Positions 17,261-46,250 of a stretch of 64,000 nucleotides of DNA are shown here, in pieces. How positions within the stretch are numbered: position 1 is the first letter of the stretch; every line of letters starts with the position of its first letter. The DNA is from Emticicia sp. BO119 (GTDB lineage: Bacteria; Bacteroidota; Bacteroidia; Cytophagales; Spirosomataceae): the NCBI RefSeq assembly GCF_013912375.1, contig NZ_JACETV010000003.1, forward strand, positions 434,001 through 498,000, in the 5' to 3' direction. The notes beneath the pieces were generated by a model, which saw only the letters and a program-made list of their open reading frames with translations, did not search any database and had not been told where the DNA came from. The position numbers and the translations under genes are program-made.

Positions 17261-17616
17261 ATGAAAAATATACCAAGCATTCTGTTTATAGTGATATTTG
17301 CTATTGGTACTGCCCAGGCGCAGTTAGCCAGTGATAAGCCGGCTCTGCTCTTACCTGCAGTTAATTCTTTAAGCAAACCTGCTAACGGTCAGGTAAAATT
17401 AGCTTAGGAGATTGACCTGCCTGACACGCTTCAAGCAAAAAATGCCCGAAAACTACCTTTAGCCAATCATTCTACGCTGAAACTTGCTTCGGAGATTGAC
17501 CTACCTGACACGCTTCAGGCAAAAAATGCCCAAAAGTACCTTTAGCCAATCATTCTACGCTGAAACTTGCTTCGGACGCAGAAATACCTAAAAGTACAGC
17601 AAAAGAAAAGAATTGA
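17261..17616 (+). pseudogene. Decayed secreted protein with 28-residue tandem repeats
   Basis: ATG 17261 lies 6 bp after the previous stop and opens a signal peptide (MKNIPSILFIVIFAIGTAQA). The frame stops after 48 codons at TAG 17405. In the same frame it continues with EIDLPDTLQAKNARKLPLAN and, exactly 84 bp later, a second copy of the unit KLASEIDLPDTLQAKNA. Comparing copies, the TAG stands where the next unit has TCG (Ser), a single-base nonsense change. The second unit has lost one base (CCAAAAGTACC against CCGAAAACTACC), causing a frameshift. Correcting both gives a continuous frame to TGA 17614-17616 (ending STAKEKN). The two lesions indicate a dead gene, unless they are assembly errors. 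Its function is unknown. Confidence 0.8.
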
Positions 17617-36689: not shown

Positions 36690-36861
36690 GGTCTTTTTTT
36701 AGTAAAATTAGCGAAAGTTATTTTACTTGACAGGGGGCAAAAACGACATTCAACAGGGGAAAATACGCTTTTTTGAGAATATCCTTCATGAGTGCAGGGA
36801 ATTGTTGCACCTGATTACAAAACCTTTGTATATTTACATTTTACCACATTACCCACAATTA

Positions 36862-37914
36862 ATGAAAAACCTTCTCCTTAGCCTCTGTATGATGGTATTT
36901 ACAAACTGCCAGGCACAGCAGGTGGATAACCTACTTATCAAAGAATTAAAAGATAAAATCGCTGACAAAACCTATCCTAAAATCGATGCTATTGTTGTGA
37001 AACAGGGTGATGAAATTATTGTTGAAGAATACTTTAATGGATTCAGAAAAGACACTCCACATGATACACGTTCGTCTTTCAAATCCATCACAAGTATTCT
37101 GGCAGGCATTGCCATTGACAAAAAACTGATGTCAGTTGATGATAAGATCGGGCGTTTTTTCCCTGAATTAAAAAATGAAGCTAAACGTAATATCAGTATT
37201 CAGAATCTATTAGAAATGCGGTCGGGTCTGAACTGTGAGGAGTTTTATGATATTGGCCCTGAATGCGAGGATAAAATGTCGGAAACTGACGATTGGATAG
37301 CTTACTGTCTGGGCGTTGATTTGATCAGGACACCCGGTGTGAACTGGTCTTATAATTCTAATGAACCCATGCTTGTGGGAGAAATTATTGCACGAGCCAG
37401 TGGAATGACCGTGGTAGAATTTGCCAGACAAAATCTTTTTGAACCTTTGGGGATCAAAGATTATAAATGGACGCTCTCGCCCAAAGGTCAGGCACAGACG
37501 GCTGGTTCATTTTATATGAAGCCTGCGGATATGCTCAAAATCATTGAACTGGTGAAAAAAAAAGGCCATTGGCAAGGCAAGCAGGTTGTAAGTGCAGACT
37601 GGATAGAAAAATCTACCAATTGCCATATTCCTATCGACTTTTCGTTTGTGCGATATTCAAAGATGCCGGAGGCAAAATACGAAAGTGCACGCTATGGTTT
37701 TTTCTGGTATAAAGAGAAGCTGACATACAAAGACATCAAAACAGAGGTATTGTTTGCCTCAGGCAATGGCGGGCAATACATCATGTACCTACCTGACTAT
37801 AACCTGACGGCGGTGTTTACAGGCAGCAACTACGGCAACTGGAGGGGTAAACTTCCTTTTGAAATATTGCTGAAATATATTATTCCGGCGGTTGAAAAAG
37901 GGAAAGACAAATGA
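36862..37914 (+). CDS. Exported beta-lactamase-family serine hydrolase
   Basis: This 350-residue protein starts at ATG 36862 (MKNLLLSLCMMVFTNCQAQQ). That gives a signal sequence; longer in-frame starts add a non-signal extension. The beta-lactamase/transpeptidase fold has SxxK at Ser71-Lys74 (RSSFKSI), the second motif in NWSYNSNEPML, and the third near FASGNGGQYI in place of KTG. This matches class C-like esterases and D,D-peptidases (COG1680) rather than a proven antibiotic-hydrolysing enzyme. Two more beta-lactamase-related genes lie within 2.6 kb. Confidence 0.9.
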   Translation: MKNLLLSLCMMVFTNCQAQQVDNLLIKELKDKIADKTYPKIDAIVVKQGDEIIVEEYFNGFRKDTPHDTRSSFKSITSILAGIAIDKKLMSVDDKIGRFFPELKNEAKRNISIQNLLEMRSGLNCEEFYDIGPECEDKMSETDDWIAYCLGVDLIRTPGVNWSYNSNEPMLVGEIIARASGMTVVEFARQNLFEPLGIKDYKWTLSPKGQAQTAGSFYMKPADMLKIIELVKKKGHWQGKQVVSADWIEKSTNCHIPIDFSFVRYSKMPEAKYESARYGFFWYKEKLTYKDIKTEVLFASGNGGQYIMYLPDYNLTAVFTGSNYGNWRGKLPFEILLKYIIPAVEKGKDK

Positions 37915-37961
37915 TTGAAACTGTCAGGTAATCTTTGCTGTAAATACAAACCCTGGGTTTT

Positions 37962-37991
37962 GTTAACCCCCACCTAAAGCCGGGGGTTAAC
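37962..37991. terminator. Hairpin between convergent hydrolase genes
   Basis: GTTAACCCCC pairs perfectly with GGGGGTTAAC around ACCTAAAGCC. It lies 47 bp after the serine-hydrolase stop and 33 bp from the metallo-beta-lactamase stop, so it can end both convergent transcripts. There is no long T-run; it may instead be a dispersed palindrome. Confidence 0.55.
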
Positions 37992-38024
37992 TATTGATTC
38001 AGTATTGAAGACCCTGAAATCTTT

Positions 38025-38783
38025 TTACCGGGTTTTAAACAGCTTAATTGTAAAATCGAGTAATTGTATATTGCCGTAGGCACCATGGCCCGGAACGACA
38101 ATCTTTACATTCGGGTAGGTCTTTTTAATTTTTTCTACGGTGTTCGACCATTCTGCTACGTTGGCATCGCCTAAATACCCTTTGCCTGCATCTACTTCTT
38201 TGATTAAACAACCGCCAAACATGACATTTTCGCTCGGGAAATAACCCACTACATTATCTTTGGTGTGCCCCTCGCCAAAATACTTTGCCACGATTATCTC
38301 TTTCCCTACTTTTAAAGTCAGTGAATCCTGAAAGCTGTTTTCTGGAACAGTATAATTGTTTTCTCTGGCCAGGTCAGTGGTTTTTATATTGGCATAAGAA
38401 GGAATATTCGCTGCATGAAAAACCTTTAGCCCGGCTAAACAATCGTTATGAAAATGGGTTGGAATAACGGCATTTATCTGGCAATGAAGCGATTCTTTCA
38501 CCCATTTGATTAGTTCTTCCGAGCTTTTGTCGTTGGTAGGCGTATCAAAAATAATGGTTTCATTTCCGTTTCTGACTATAAGCCCATTACAGGGGACATT
38601 CCCGAAATCGTTGGTTTGTAAAAATGAAATATGCTGAAAAGCATTTTCGGCTATCTGATTCACTATCAGATTGTCGGATTTGTAAACTTCTTTAGGTTTA
38701 AATGTGGATTTTTTCTGGGCATTGCCATTAAAAACAGAGAGAGTACATACAAGGAGTAATAGCGTTTTTAGAATGGTTTTCAT
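38025..38783 (-). CDS. Subclass B1 metallo-beta-lactamase
   Basis: This 252-residue protein starts at ATG 38783 (MKTILKTLLLLVCTLSVFNG, signal peptide ending NAQ); an upstream in-frame ATG would bury the signal. All B1 zinc ligands are visible: His110, His112 and His173 (site 1), and Asp114, Cys192 and His233 (site 2), in THFHNDCLAG, EGHTKDN, GGCLIKE and PGHG. KGYLGDANVAEW is the B1-type substrate-binding segment. The length is normal for B1 enzymes. It should hydrolyse beta-lactams, possibly carbapenems, in the periplasm; the spectrum cannot be read from sequence. No mobile gene cassette structure is next to it, so it looks intrinsic. Confidence 0.92.
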   Translation of the reverse strand: MKTILKTLLLLVCTLSVFNGNAQKKSTFKPKEVYKSDNLIVNQIAENAFQHISFLQTNDFGNVPCNGLIVRNGNETIIFDTPTNDKSSEELIKWVKESLHCQINAVIPTHFHNDCLAGLKVFHAANIPSYANIKTTDLARENNYTVPENSFQDSLTLKVGKEIIVAKYFGEGHTKDNVVGYFPSENVMFGGCLIKEVDAGKGYLGDANVAEWSNTVEKIKKTYPNVKIVVPGHGAYGNIQLLDFTIKLFKTR

Positions 38784-39066
38784 TTGTGTTTTTGGAGTTT
38801 TGCACGTTAATTTTTTAAAGAGCCGAAGCATTTGTAAAGTTAACGAATTTTGTCTGGTCATAGGATAGGTTTATGCAAATGTATTTTTGGGTAGAATACC
38901 TGTTTCAAAAAAAGGTGATTACTAAGATTATCATGAAAGTTTTTGTAACTTTTTTGATGGTTTACAGTACTTAACTATATAGTAGCACAAATCAACTAAA
39001 AGGCATTTTGATTCTGCCAGGCTTTAATTAATCATCATTCTATTACTTCTTTATCCGACCATACTT

Positions 39067-40503
39067 ATGAAAGACTTTACAAACTTACACAAGAGAATAT
39101 TGATTAAGCTATCCCTCATTTTTCTTTTTTTTACTCCCCTGATTTCAAAAAGTCAAGAAAATAAGTTAGTGTATGATGCAGTAAAAGAGGTATTTATAGT
39201 AAAGTTTAATAAAGGTGATTATAGTGGTATTTATTCACTTTTTGATGACGCTTTCCGCAACAAAATCTCTGAAAAAGTTTTAGTAAACTTCCTTAAGGGC
39301 AACCAGAATTCGGGCAGGATTTTAAATTCGTCTCTCCAATCTGTAGAAAAAGACAAATTTGTCTATCTACTGGAGTTTGAACTAAGAGAGATGCTGATGG
39401 ATATACAATTAAATGAGAAGAAGCAAATACGCAGTTTTGGTTTAAGGAATGTATCTCCTCTGTATCTCACTGATGCACCGGCTGTACAAACAAATAATCT
39501 TAAAAAGACTGCTATTGATCAGGCCGTTGATTCGGCTGCGCGCGAATATTTTAAATTTGCCAACGCCACCAGTCTAAGTATCGGCATTATCAAAAACGGC
39601 AAAAAATATGAATATTACTATGGAGAAACTACCAAAGGGAATGGAAAAATACCTGATGCTGAAACCTTATATGAGATTGGTTCTATTACTAAAACATTTA
39701 CAGCTACCTTACTGGCGCAAGCTGTTCTTGATAAAAAACTGAATCTGCACGACGATATAAGGAAATATCTGCCATCACTATTCTCGAATCTGAGTTTTAA
39801 GGATACACCTATTACTTTTCAGAGTCTGGCTAACCATACTTCTCGATTACCTGCCTTGCCCGCAGACATTGGCGATAAGCCCAACTATAATCCTGTAAGC
39901 CCTGAAGCGCATTATGATTCTTCTATGTTTTATCAGGCATTGCAAAAAGTAGTATTAGATACCATACCGGGGCATACATTTCTTTATTCCAATTGGGGTA
40001 TCGCCTTATTGGGGCATATACTTGAAAATATCTATAAACAGACCCAGTCTGATTTGATTGCACGGTATATCACCACACCCTTAGGCATGAGGAACACCTT
40101 TTATTTAGAAAACATAGGTTCTAAAAAAGTAGCCTTGCCTCATAGCGAAAATGGGAAAACGCTTATAATAACCGACCAGGGGTATTTTGACCCGGCAGGA
40201 GGACTTTGTTCAACTTTGCCGGACATGCTTCGATATTTAGAGGCTCAACTACAAGAGCAGAATCCTGCTATCAGGCTTACCCATACACCAACAGCTAATA
40301 ATATGGGGTTGGGCTGGGGTGTAAGAACGATAGAAGGTAAACGGGATTTTCAACATAATGGAAGTGAACAAGGCTCAACTGCACATATATCAGGATTTCC
40401 TGATAACCAGGGTGGTTGTGTTATTCTTATCAATAACAAGATCAATGCAGGCAAACTTATTAATAGTATTCAGGCTATTGTGAGAAGTAAAGCTTATGAA
40501 TAA
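39067..40503 (+). CDS. Exported serine hydrolase with N-terminal DUF3887-like domain
   Basis: This is a 478-residue protein with a signal region (ILIKLSLIFLFFTPLISKSQ). A small N-terminal domain (about 35-130: VYDAVKEVFIVKFNKGDYSG, FDDAFRNKISEKVLVNFLKG) resembles DUF3887. The catalytic domain has Ser206-x-x-Lys209 (GSITKTF), YSN (HTFLYSNWG) and HNG (FQHNGSEQG). These are complete class C/penicillin-binding-like motifs. It is probably a peptidoglycan or ester hydrolase; beta-lactamase activity is possible. It is encoded divergently from the metallo-beta-lactamase gene. Confidence 0.91.
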   Translation: MKDFTNLHKRILIKLSLIFLFFTPLISKSQENKLVYDAVKEVFIVKFNKGDYSGIYSLFDDAFRNKISEKVLVNFLKGNQNSGRILNSSLQSVEKDKFVYLLEFELREMLMDIQLNEKKQIRSFGLRNVSPLYLTDAPAVQTNNLKKTAIDQAVDSAAREYFKFANATSLSIGIIKNGKKYEYYYGETTKGNGKIPDAETLYEIGSITKTFTATLLAQAVLDKKLNLHDDIRKYLPSLFSNLSFKDTPITFQSLANHTSRLPALPADIGDKPNYNPVSPEAHYDSSMFYQALQKVVLDTIPGHTFLYSNWGIALLGHILENIYKQTQSDLIARYITTPLGMRNTFYLENIGSKKVALPHSENGKTLIITDQGYFDPAGGLCSTLPDMLRYLEAQLQEQNPAIRLTHTPTANNMGLGWGVRTIEGKRDFQHNGSEQGSTAHISGFPDNQGGCVILINNKINAGKLINSIQAIVRSKAYE

Positions 40504-40971: not shown

Positions 40972-41343
40972 ATAGGTTTTTTATGATATGAAATGTGTTT
41001 AATTTAGAAAAGTGCCTGTTTACTTTCTTCTATGAGTGTTGTATGGCCCTGCAAAAGGTATCTTAAACTTTTTTTAGGAAACGAAAATTAAAGCCTGACT
41101 TACAAAAAGTCCACATGCTGTCATATAAATGTTTATTGGATTGAAGTATTCCTGATTAAAGATAATGCAATATTTATAATTTTGTTGGCGTATTCAAATG
41201 ATAAGAGTGAATGATGGTTTTATTGTATTAAATGTGATAATTAAAATAGTAGAATTAGCATATTTATGTAATATTATGGCTTGCTTAATATATGCCTTTA
41301 TCTTTATATTATTAAACTGACAACCAATAATAAATCGGAAAAG
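40972..41343. other. AT-rich intergenic stretch
   Basis: No gene, repeat or convincing hairpin is seen. The right part (41150-41340) is strongly AT-rich, matching the composition of the Ntn-hydrolase gene that follows. A promoter for that gene is likely here, but no clean TTG/TANNTTTG pair was found; TATCTTTA at 41299-41306 is the nearest. Confidence 0.4.
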
Positions 41344-42147
41344 ATGAAATTACTTGTATTTATTTTTCTATTCTTCATCCAGATTAAAGTTATTTCACAA
41401 AGTTTATACGGGACTTCAATTCTTTATTGTATCTCTGATAAAGAGGTCATTATAGCTGCAGATACTAAAATCAATTTTACTACGCCACATAAAGACAGTT
41501 CACATATTAAAATTCAACACAACAACAATTTAAGTTGGGTTTATTCGGGTTTTAGTGCTATGGGTAATCAATTTGATGTGAATAAAATAATAAACTTAGT
41601 TGCGTCCAAAAAAAAAAGTTATCGGAATACTATTGATGAAATCGATACAAGAATAATAAATATATTGGTGAAGTGTGATTACATATTTTATAATAATACT
41701 GTACGTGACAGGATTCTTAAAAGAGAAGGCAAGATTCTTAAATTGTTATTTGTATCATTTGTTAATAAGAAAGTTCAATATGAAATTTTAGAATATATAT
41801 TGGAACAGAAGGGAGGCCAAGAACAGATTACAAGTTATCTTATAGAAAATCAGGATTTACTAAATCACTCCCCCAACCGCGTGGTAATAGGGAGTATGGG
41901 AAAATATGATACTGATAACACAAAATACGTAACAGAAATAAGTAAATTAATTGATAAAAAGGCAAAGAATAGTCAATTTCCGACTGTAAAAATTAAAGGC
42001 TTTAGCACTTTTAAGGTTGATTCTTATGCTAAATTATTATATTATCTGGTTTATAGAACTTCTTTAAAATATCCATCCGAAGTAGGTAGACCTATTACTG
42101 TTTATAAGATTACTAATAATAACTTTCAATTGTTAATTAATAATTGA
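41344..42147 (+). CDS. Exported proteasome-like Ntn hydrolase
   Basis: This 267-residue protein starts at ATG 41344 (MKLLVFIFLFFIQIKVISQS, a signal peptide). After SLYG comes Thr24 in GTSILYCISDKEVIIAADTK. Numbering Thr24 as 1, Asp falls at 17 and Lys at 33 (HIK), with Gly at -1. These are the catalytic Thr1/Asp17/Lys33 and cleavage-site positions of proteasome beta subunits. The first strands and the AAD motif also match, and YSG at +44 to +46 is near the proteasome Gly47. The C-terminal half is not recognisable by eye. It could be a periplasmic, self-activating Ntn peptidase, possibly HslV/Anbu-related. Base composition is more AT-rich than neighbouring genes, suggesting transfer. Confidence 0.72.
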   Translation: MKLLVFIFLFFIQIKVISQSLYGTSILYCISDKEVIIAADTKINFTTPHKDSSHIKIQHNNNLSWVYSGFSAMGNQFDVNKIINLVASKKKSYRNTIDEIDTRIINILVKCDYIFYNNTVRDRILKREGKILKLLFVSFVNKKVQYEILEYILEQKGGQEQITSYLIENQDLLNHSPNRVVIGSMGKYDTDNTKYVTEISKLIDKKAKNSQFPTVKIKGFSTFKVDSYAKLLYYLVYRTSLKYPSEVGRPITVYKITNNNFQLLINN

Positions 42148-42176
42148 GAGAGGCTTTATTGTCTGGGGTCGAAAAT

Positions 42177-42213
42177 AAGTTTGACTTAAGCTATTCCATT
42201 ATTAGTCAAACTT
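42177..42213 (+). terminator. Hairpin after the Ntn-hydrolase gene
   Basis: AAGTTTGACT (42177-42186) pairs perfectly with AGTCAAACTT (42204-42213), 29 bp after the stop codon. The T-run is weak. Just beyond it, CCACGGAGGGGCCGTG (42218-42233) is a second short hairpin. Confidence 0.5.
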
Positions 42214-42367
42214 AAACCACGGAGGGGCCGTGTTAAAGCACCTTTAATTATTTCCGCTTTATTCACTACCTACAATTTTCTCGTTACAATCTAAACATAA
42301 ATTCACTAATTTTACCCCCACATAAGACCGATACCCGTCGGCCAGCACACTCTACTACAAAACACTC

Positions 42368-45596: not shown

Positions 45597-46250
45597 ATGA
45601 AAGCACTAATACTAACTCTTATACTTTTTTTACCAATTATTGTTTACAGCAAGGAAAAAGCACCAGATACTAAACAAACCCCCTCTATTGATACCCACAA
45701 ATCTTATTTCAATACTCCTTCACTAAACTCTGTCAATGACAGTCTGCTTTTTCAAGGGCTTATCTTTTCCAATAAAATTATTAGTAATGACTCAATTTTA
45801 CTGACAATTTTAAAGAACGCTCCTTTATCAATATCTGCATCTGACAATATTTTCAGAGAAAACTACAAATCTGTGATAATTTCTTCATTAGCCTATAATA
45901 AAGCTAAATTTGATTATTATAGTAATGGTTACACACACCAGAGTAAAATTTTCAGTTTTCAACTATTTTCTTCTCAAATAATATTCTGGCTTGTAGTTGC
46001 TATTGTAATTTCAGGACTAATTATGTCTGGATTACAATTTTATAATTCATTCAAATCCGTAAAGTTACATAAGGAAGAAATGGAAGAAGAATCTCAGGAT
46101 TATATAAGAGAAATTGAAAAAAAACTGCATTCAAATTTAGAAATATCTCTGAAAGGCATGAGGGTCAAAAACTCAATTATAGGTATTTTGATTCTATCAA
46201 TTTCTCTGGCTTTCTTTTATTTGTATATGGTTTATATATATGCAATGTAA
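45597..46250 (+). CDS. Hypothetical membrane protein with signal peptide
   Basis: I do not recognise this 217-residue protein. It has a signal peptide (MKALILTLILFLPIIVYSKE), a hydrophilic Ser/Asn-rich exported part of about 105 residues, and TM1 (IIFWLVVAIVISGLIMSGLQ). A charged cytoplasmic segment (HKEEMEEESQDYIREIEKKL) and TM2 (SIIGILILSISLAFFYLYMV) follow. The coding sequence is AT-rich. It is followed by a strong hairpin terminator and appears to be a stand-alone unit. Confidence 0.7.
   Translation: MKALILTLILFLPIIVYSKEKAPDTKQTPSIDTHKSYFNTPSLNSVNDSLLFQGLIFSNKIISNDSILLTILKNAPLSISASDNIFRENYKSVIISSLAYNKAKFDYYSNGYTHQSKIFSFQLFSSQIIFWLVVAIVISGLIMSGLQFYNSFKSVKLHKEEMEEESQDYIREIEKKLHSNLEISLKGMRVKNSIIGILILSISLAFFYLYMVYIYAM

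Follow-up and report, generated by a model that had tools for sequence, protein, structure and literature searches.

An exported proteasome-like Ntn protein predicted at a variable site of an Emticicia genome, and its rare relatives

The window analysed here is a stretch of 64,000 nucleotides from Emticicia sp. BO119 (contig NZ_JACETV010000003.1), and the gene under study, P0001, lies in its second half (Table 1). An in-frame TTG is found upstream at 41281, ahead of the ATG start. The leader reads MKLLVFIFLFFIQIKVIS and is followed by QSLYG and then by TSILYCISDKEVIIAADTK...HIKI...YSGF, which places Thr24 in the context QSLYG/T24SILYC. When Thr24 is counted as residue 1, Gly falls at position -1, Asp40 at 17 and Lys56 at 33; this is the spacing given by the original prediction and it was found to be correct when re-read from the translation. 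The chain ends about 16 residues past the C-terminal motif. A possible terminator was noticed shortly after the gene (window 42176-42214), an inverted repeat whose 11-base arms match perfectly and stand 17 bases apart.

Table 1. Features of the P0001 gene and of the site that holds it, in window coordinates.
Feature	Coordinates	Strand	Basis
P0001 gene, predicted exported proteasome-like protein, 267 aa	41344..42147	+	open frame, ATG; kin to four relatives
Leader, signal-peptide-like, about residues 1-18	41344..41397	+	hydropathy; cut site placed by eye
QSLYG, possible 5-residue propeptide, Gly at -1	41398..41412	+	read from translation; Gly -1 in 4 of 5 members
Thr24, candidate nucleophile Thr1	41413..41415	+	invariant in 5 of 5 members; profile T1 on residue 1 of 1fnt_H
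Asp40 = Asp17	41461..41463	+	invariant in 5 of 5 members
Lys56 = Lys33	41509..41511	+	invariant in 5 of 5 members after loop gaps
Gly69 (mature 46), candidate oxyanion-hole glycine, Gly47-like	41548..41550	+	Gly in 4 of 5 members, Ala in P0004
C-terminal motif KYPSEVGRPI, before the last strands	42067..42096	+	Val-Gly invariant in 5 of 5; hhalign to Anbu NDVDFPID, E 0.023
Variable interval holding the P0001 gene	40980..42298	.	corresponding site in G001 and G008, the sister genomes, has no homology

The P0001 gene has a GC content of 27.5%, the lowest among the 37 non-overlapping, ATG-started open frames of at least 200 aa in the window (mean 42.1%, sd 4.3), and the AT-richness remarked on earlier is thus borne out. 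The second-lowest value of this set (28.6%) belongs to window 45597-46250, 3.4 kb downstream, which by eye encodes an unclassified membrane protein. The site of the gene was observed to be variable. Blastn matches to the nearest sister genomes, G001 and G008, in which the flanking fucosidase is 95% identical, end at 40979 and resume at 42299 with both flanks kept. At this site G001 carries about 0.87 kb with a 164-aa frame; its sugar isomerase lies outside the site, beyond the 128-aa flank gene. In G008 the site spans about 2.0 kb and contains two frames, one of 312 aa that by eye is of the sugar isomerase type and one of 205 aa. None of the ten further genomes searched within the genus has the P0001 gene, and a weak match in G008 (E 0.053) was rejected as a histidine-kinase-like frame. 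The low GC content and the variable site suggest that the gene was probably acquired horizontally, and the foreign origin that had been proposed as possible is likely on the same grounds.

The neighbours of P0001 were identified with Pfam as beta-lactamase-type and fucosidase genes. No HslU gene was found beside it, and no gene for an alpha subunit or an unfoldase nearby. Three adjacent beta-lactamase-type genes, two serine (PF00144) and one metallo (PF00753), are located at window 36727-40503, and by eye each of their proteins has an export-like leader. A functional link between these genes and P0001 was considered and dropped, because G001 and G008 keep both flanks without the P0001 gene. 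Elsewhere in the window, an 83-base unit occurs twice in tandem (17402-17576), the copies matching at 94%.

Searches with P0001 alone gave little. The search against Pfam returned two weak irrelevant matches and none to PF00227, so that the direct comparison with the proteasome model suggested by the original prediction turned out negative. No matches were obtained in NCBIfam or PADLOC, and two weak matches in PHROGs belong to families that are both of unknown function. Against the PDB no relevant match was observed (a phosphopantetheinyl transferase appeared at E 1.4), and no relative was found among the phages, plasmids and viral contigs searched with P0001. Two AlphaFold2 predictions had a mean pLDDT of 33.6 and 34.3, which is too low to inform on the Ntn sandwich.

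Relatives were found with wider searches. The P0001 search of 222 genomes of its own family gave matches in 8 genomes at E 0.1 or better and, besides its own genome, one match was judged to be real (locus L007 of G023, E 0.0027); the protein there likewise has a leader, T1 and D17. The contig, CATMVR010000670.1, is labelled 'uncultured Persicitalea', and the relative's gene (P0002; also L118) is split by a frameshift which, as the contig comes from a metagenome assembly, may be an assembly error. Its C-terminal piece reads KYPDEVGLPI...RIT against KYPSEVGRPI...KIT of P0001. A search of 395 genomes of the class with the two-member profile (A5) gave some match at E 0.5 in 27 of them and retrieved P0004 (E 3e-7) and P0005 (E 4.9e-7). 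The four-member profile (A9) was then run on 268 phylum genomes, 15 of which had some match at E 0.2, and led to P0006/P0007, one gene with two alternative starts (E 2.1e-4). Both profiles also matched the HslV of G040 (E 0.11). In the order of G944, the genome of P0005, 64 genomes were searched and a clear member was seen in G944 alone. The weak matches were read individually for 4 of the 8 non-self rows in the family, 13 of 30 in the class, 2 of 6 in the order of G944 and 6 of 16 in the phylum. When the five-member model was scored against every frame of at least 40 codons (n=9845) in the 215 retrieved loci, no sixth member was found and nothing beyond the known members scored better than E 0.009. 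Since the genome samples overlap, no frequency is given for the family beyond 'rare'.

Further searches yielded no confirmed relative. Plasmids and phages were searched with P0002 at E up to 10 without finding one; the phage search gave 8 matches (E 3), and among three plasmid matches, H1 and H2 were read and rejected, H1 lying within an 886-aa pyruvate-dehydrogenase-like frame and neither having the N-terminal motif. Plasmids searched with P0004, P0005 and P0007 gave no relative and one weak match within a VirB4 gene. Viral contigs searched with family profiles and single members gave no relative, and a related-locus search of genome contigs matched 164 stretches, none of which was confirmed. 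A DNA pattern of the C-terminal motif had 2 viral matches, both chance by eye, and 29 genome matches, consisting by eye of L118, 9 short-chain dehydrogenase frames and 19 other frames.

The four relatives share 18-23% identity with P0001. In the alignment T1, A16, D17, K19, K33 and the C-terminal V-G were found to be invariant in all five members. The aligned lysine occupies mature position 33 in P0001 and P0005, 38 in P0002 and P0004, and 37 in P0007, because the loop that precedes it varies in length. Variation of Thr24, Asp40 or Lys56 among homologues had been named beforehand as evidence against the prediction; all three are conserved in the five members. In a leave-one-out test, in which leaders were removed and each member was scored against a model of the other four, the scores were 39.4 bits (P0001), 32.3 (P0002, N-terminal piece), 78.3 (P0004), 43.9 (P0005) and 36.6 (P0007); none of 2000 shuffles reached the true score in any of the five tests and the highest shuffle scored 13.1. 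Furthermore, the unjoined C-terminal piece of the frameshifted relative, which is absent from the five-member model, scores E 3.2e-6 with it. This conservation also bears on whether P0001 is an inactive family member, either a binding protein or a gene decaying after transfer. Rarity, low GC content and the frameshift in the L118 relative (with the possible assembly error just mentioned) would fit such a fate, but the frame of P0001 is intact and the three catalytic residues have been kept in five divergent members, and we regard it as improbable.

Several comparisons point to the proteasome. The five-member profile matched 28 PDB sequences at E 10 or better (best E 0.024), of which 27 are proteasome subunits, mostly copies of a few yeast subunits (many alpha-3 and beta-1); singly, these matches are weak. 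In this search T1 was aligned to residue 1 of yeast beta-1 chain 1fnt_H, which we take to be the mature Thr1 of that subunit. Smaller profiles gave less: yeast alpha-3 made up 9 of the 10 matches of the two-member profile (E 0.43-0.5), core subunits 4 of the 15 matches of the four-member profile, the top one being an unrelated regulatory subunit, and two relatives searched singly against the PDB gave weak unrelated matches only. When aligned with hhalign to eight HslV of related genomes, the family scored 23.6-23.7 in register, and none of 600 column shuffles reached this (peak 19.9); the score against fourteen Anbu was reached by at least 19 of 600 column shuffles. With the four-member profile, hhalign itself assigned low probabilities (Anbu 2.1%, HslV 8.9%).

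Single members also gave matches to proteasome-like families. P0006 matches PF00227 at E 0.0024 (18.0 bits, below the 22.4 cut-off), whereas P0002, P0004 and P0005 do not match this model; P0004 (E 0.033) and P0005 (E 0.014) match phrog_1040, annotated 'peptidase HslV family'. T1 was in register by coordinates in all of these matches. Among the non-members within the 9845 frames, the five-member model scored a PMI-like frame in L089 second-best (E 0.012) and many HslV at E 0.3-0.7, HslV loci being over-represented among the 215 loci. Equivalents of Asp166 and Ser169 were not seen by eye, the sites reading Pro/Leu and Val in a region where the alignment is uncertain. No single test is overwhelming; combined with the conserved triad, they make the kinship of this family to proteasome-like Ntn hydrolases, as the original prediction had suggested, highly probable at the level of sequence. 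One alternative is that the resemblance to the proteasome arose through chance or convergence, P0001 being either an exported protein without such kinship or an exported Ntn hydrolase from a different group. This would agree with its lack of a direct family match and with the low-confidence AlphaFold2 models, but the PDB and HslV results speak against it. In addition, no Pfam model of another Ntn group was matched by P0001, P0004, P0005 or P0006 (E up to 10) or by P0002 (E up to 1), and we consider this explanation very improbable.

Signal peptides of P0001 and its relatives were judged by eye and hydropathy only, and on this basis the export-type leader of P0001 (best 12-residue hydropathy 3.07) that had been described earlier was seen again, with signal-like leaders in four of the five members (P0001, P0002, P0004 and P0007). 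P0005 has no leader and only MIKSLIFG is found before T1. It could be argued from P0005, and from the way in which leaders were judged, that P0001 remains in the cytoplasm or at its boundary, its leader serving as a membrane anchor or long propeptide. However, the four leaders are each signal-peptide-like while differing in sequence, which makes this distinctly improbable. The stretches predicted by eye to be left before T1 after signal peptidase are QSLYG, QTRQG and QPVNNDIIIRHG; P0002 is the exception, where by eye signal peptidase could bare T1 directly (IHA/T). Glycine occupies position -1 in four of the five members, and in proteasome beta precursors Gly -1 is the residue before the cut. 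From the leaders, the short stretches before T1 and this glycine we therefore infer a model of maturation in two steps.

The surroundings of the relatives differ. The P0002 gene follows a recombinase-like frame and the P0004 gene follows a topoisomerase-like gene. P0005 (G944, L214:4781-6358) is located 48 bp behind a TIR gene (PADLOC PDC-S66, E 1.6e-39); an AAA_13 gene (PADLOC PDC-S06, E 2.6e-153) and two genes of recombinase-like type lie near it, and the locus may be a defence island that includes a proteasome-like partner. The P0007 gene (G376, L215:4264-6110) shares 4 bases with the end of a gene for a family 2 glycosyltransferase, and thus the two may be translated together. No partner gene was common to the neighbourhoods of the five members, which suggests an accessory, probably mobile gene. 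That leaderless P0005 stands close behind a TIR gene with a match to a candidate phage-defence model is relevant to another explanation. In this reading P0001 is proteasome-like and processed between Gly23 and Thr24, yet it would not be a general hydrolase but either an effector or a connectase-like ligase or transpeptidase that is specific for certain proteins or peptides. Connectase, a monomeric proteasome homolog described as a ligase (PMC8665760), provides a precedent. A recognition insert was not identified, and the five members have no conserved partner gene in their neighbourhood; we regard this explanation as rather unlikely.

P0001 shares Thr1, Asp17, Lys33, Gly -1 and the register over the first 60 residues or so with 20S beta subunits (PF00227), but it has an export leader, lacks a PF00227 match and has no alpha subunit or unfoldase gene nearby. 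With HslV it shares the N-terminal register from Gly/Ala-Thr1 to the Gly47 region, whereas it has a leader and a longer chain, and the HslV of its own genome is a separate gene. Two PF00227 proteins are encoded on other contigs of this genome (C1:1640398-1640916 and C27:259585-260106), which from their sequences we take to be HslV and an Anbu-like protein; three proteasome-like proteins may therefore coexist in it. Towards Anbu the N-terminal register is weak, and EVGRPITV of P0001 aligns to NDVDFPIDV (E 0.023). In contrast to P0001, which has 23 residues before Thr24 and lacks a C-terminal extension, the Anbu of this genome family start with Met-Thr, have no leader and carry a C-terminal extension, a long C-terminal helix being a mark of Anbu. 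Penicillin acylase S45 and gamma-glutamyl transpeptidase are exported and then cut themselves to free a catalytic N-terminal residue, but they belong to other sequence families and neither is matched by P0001 in Pfam.

Fuchs, Alva and Lupas (2021) described 22 further proteasome homologs in two groups, including PMI and WPH (PMC8665760). As described there, these are likewise divergent prokaryotic proteasome-like proteins with the same triad; P0001 is set beside them by description only. The survey states that propeptides occur only in proteasome beta and HslV, and the main text makes no mention of secretion, periplasm, extracellular location or export and names no secreted member, while the word 'signal' occurs there in a reference alone. 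No exported proteasome relative was found in the titles and abstract starts returned from an open-access collection with few subscription journals. A 450-aa frame in one retrieved locus (L089:548-1897, G160), which starts with MTAVVGI...AADS, ends with ESVGGPIDVAI and matches PF00227 at E 0.0067, looks by eye like a PMI-type proteasome homolog.

The observation goes beyond chance and is that of a rare and probably acquired branch of the proteasome-like Ntn family, predicted from sequence to be exported. P0001 itself is, somewhat more probably than not, an exported and self-maturing member of this family and a predicted amide hydrolase outside the cytoplasm. Its precursor would be exported by Sec and signal peptidase would take off about residues 1-18. 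Once folded, the protein would cleave its own chain at Gly23/Thr24 in the way of proteasome beta precursors, and the freed Thr1 could attack amide bonds with the help of Lys33 and Asp17 in the periplasm or at the cell surface, places in which no proteasome relative is known to work. ATP is absent outside the cytoplasm and no gene for an unfoldase lies close by, so that the likely substrate, as a guess, is a peptide or else a segment of protein, either unfolded or specific. A broader picture, which we offer tentatively as a little short of an even chance, is that of a proteasome branch that has left the cytoplasm, namely an exported, ATP-independent and self-maturing threonine amide hydrolase or ligase of Bacteroidota that is spread by mobile DNA and has a leaderless cousin beside a TIR-type defence gene.

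The characterised proteasome relatives (20S, HslV, Anbu, BPH and connectase) include none described as exported in the part of PMC8665760 used here, and several of them have ATP-driven partners. If the present reading is true, P0001 would be a small enzyme open to testing, in which export together with self-cleavage frees the nucleophile. An exported branch would show that the proteasome fold is able to mature and act without ATP-driven partners, and it would bear on the origin of the family before rings and unfoldases.
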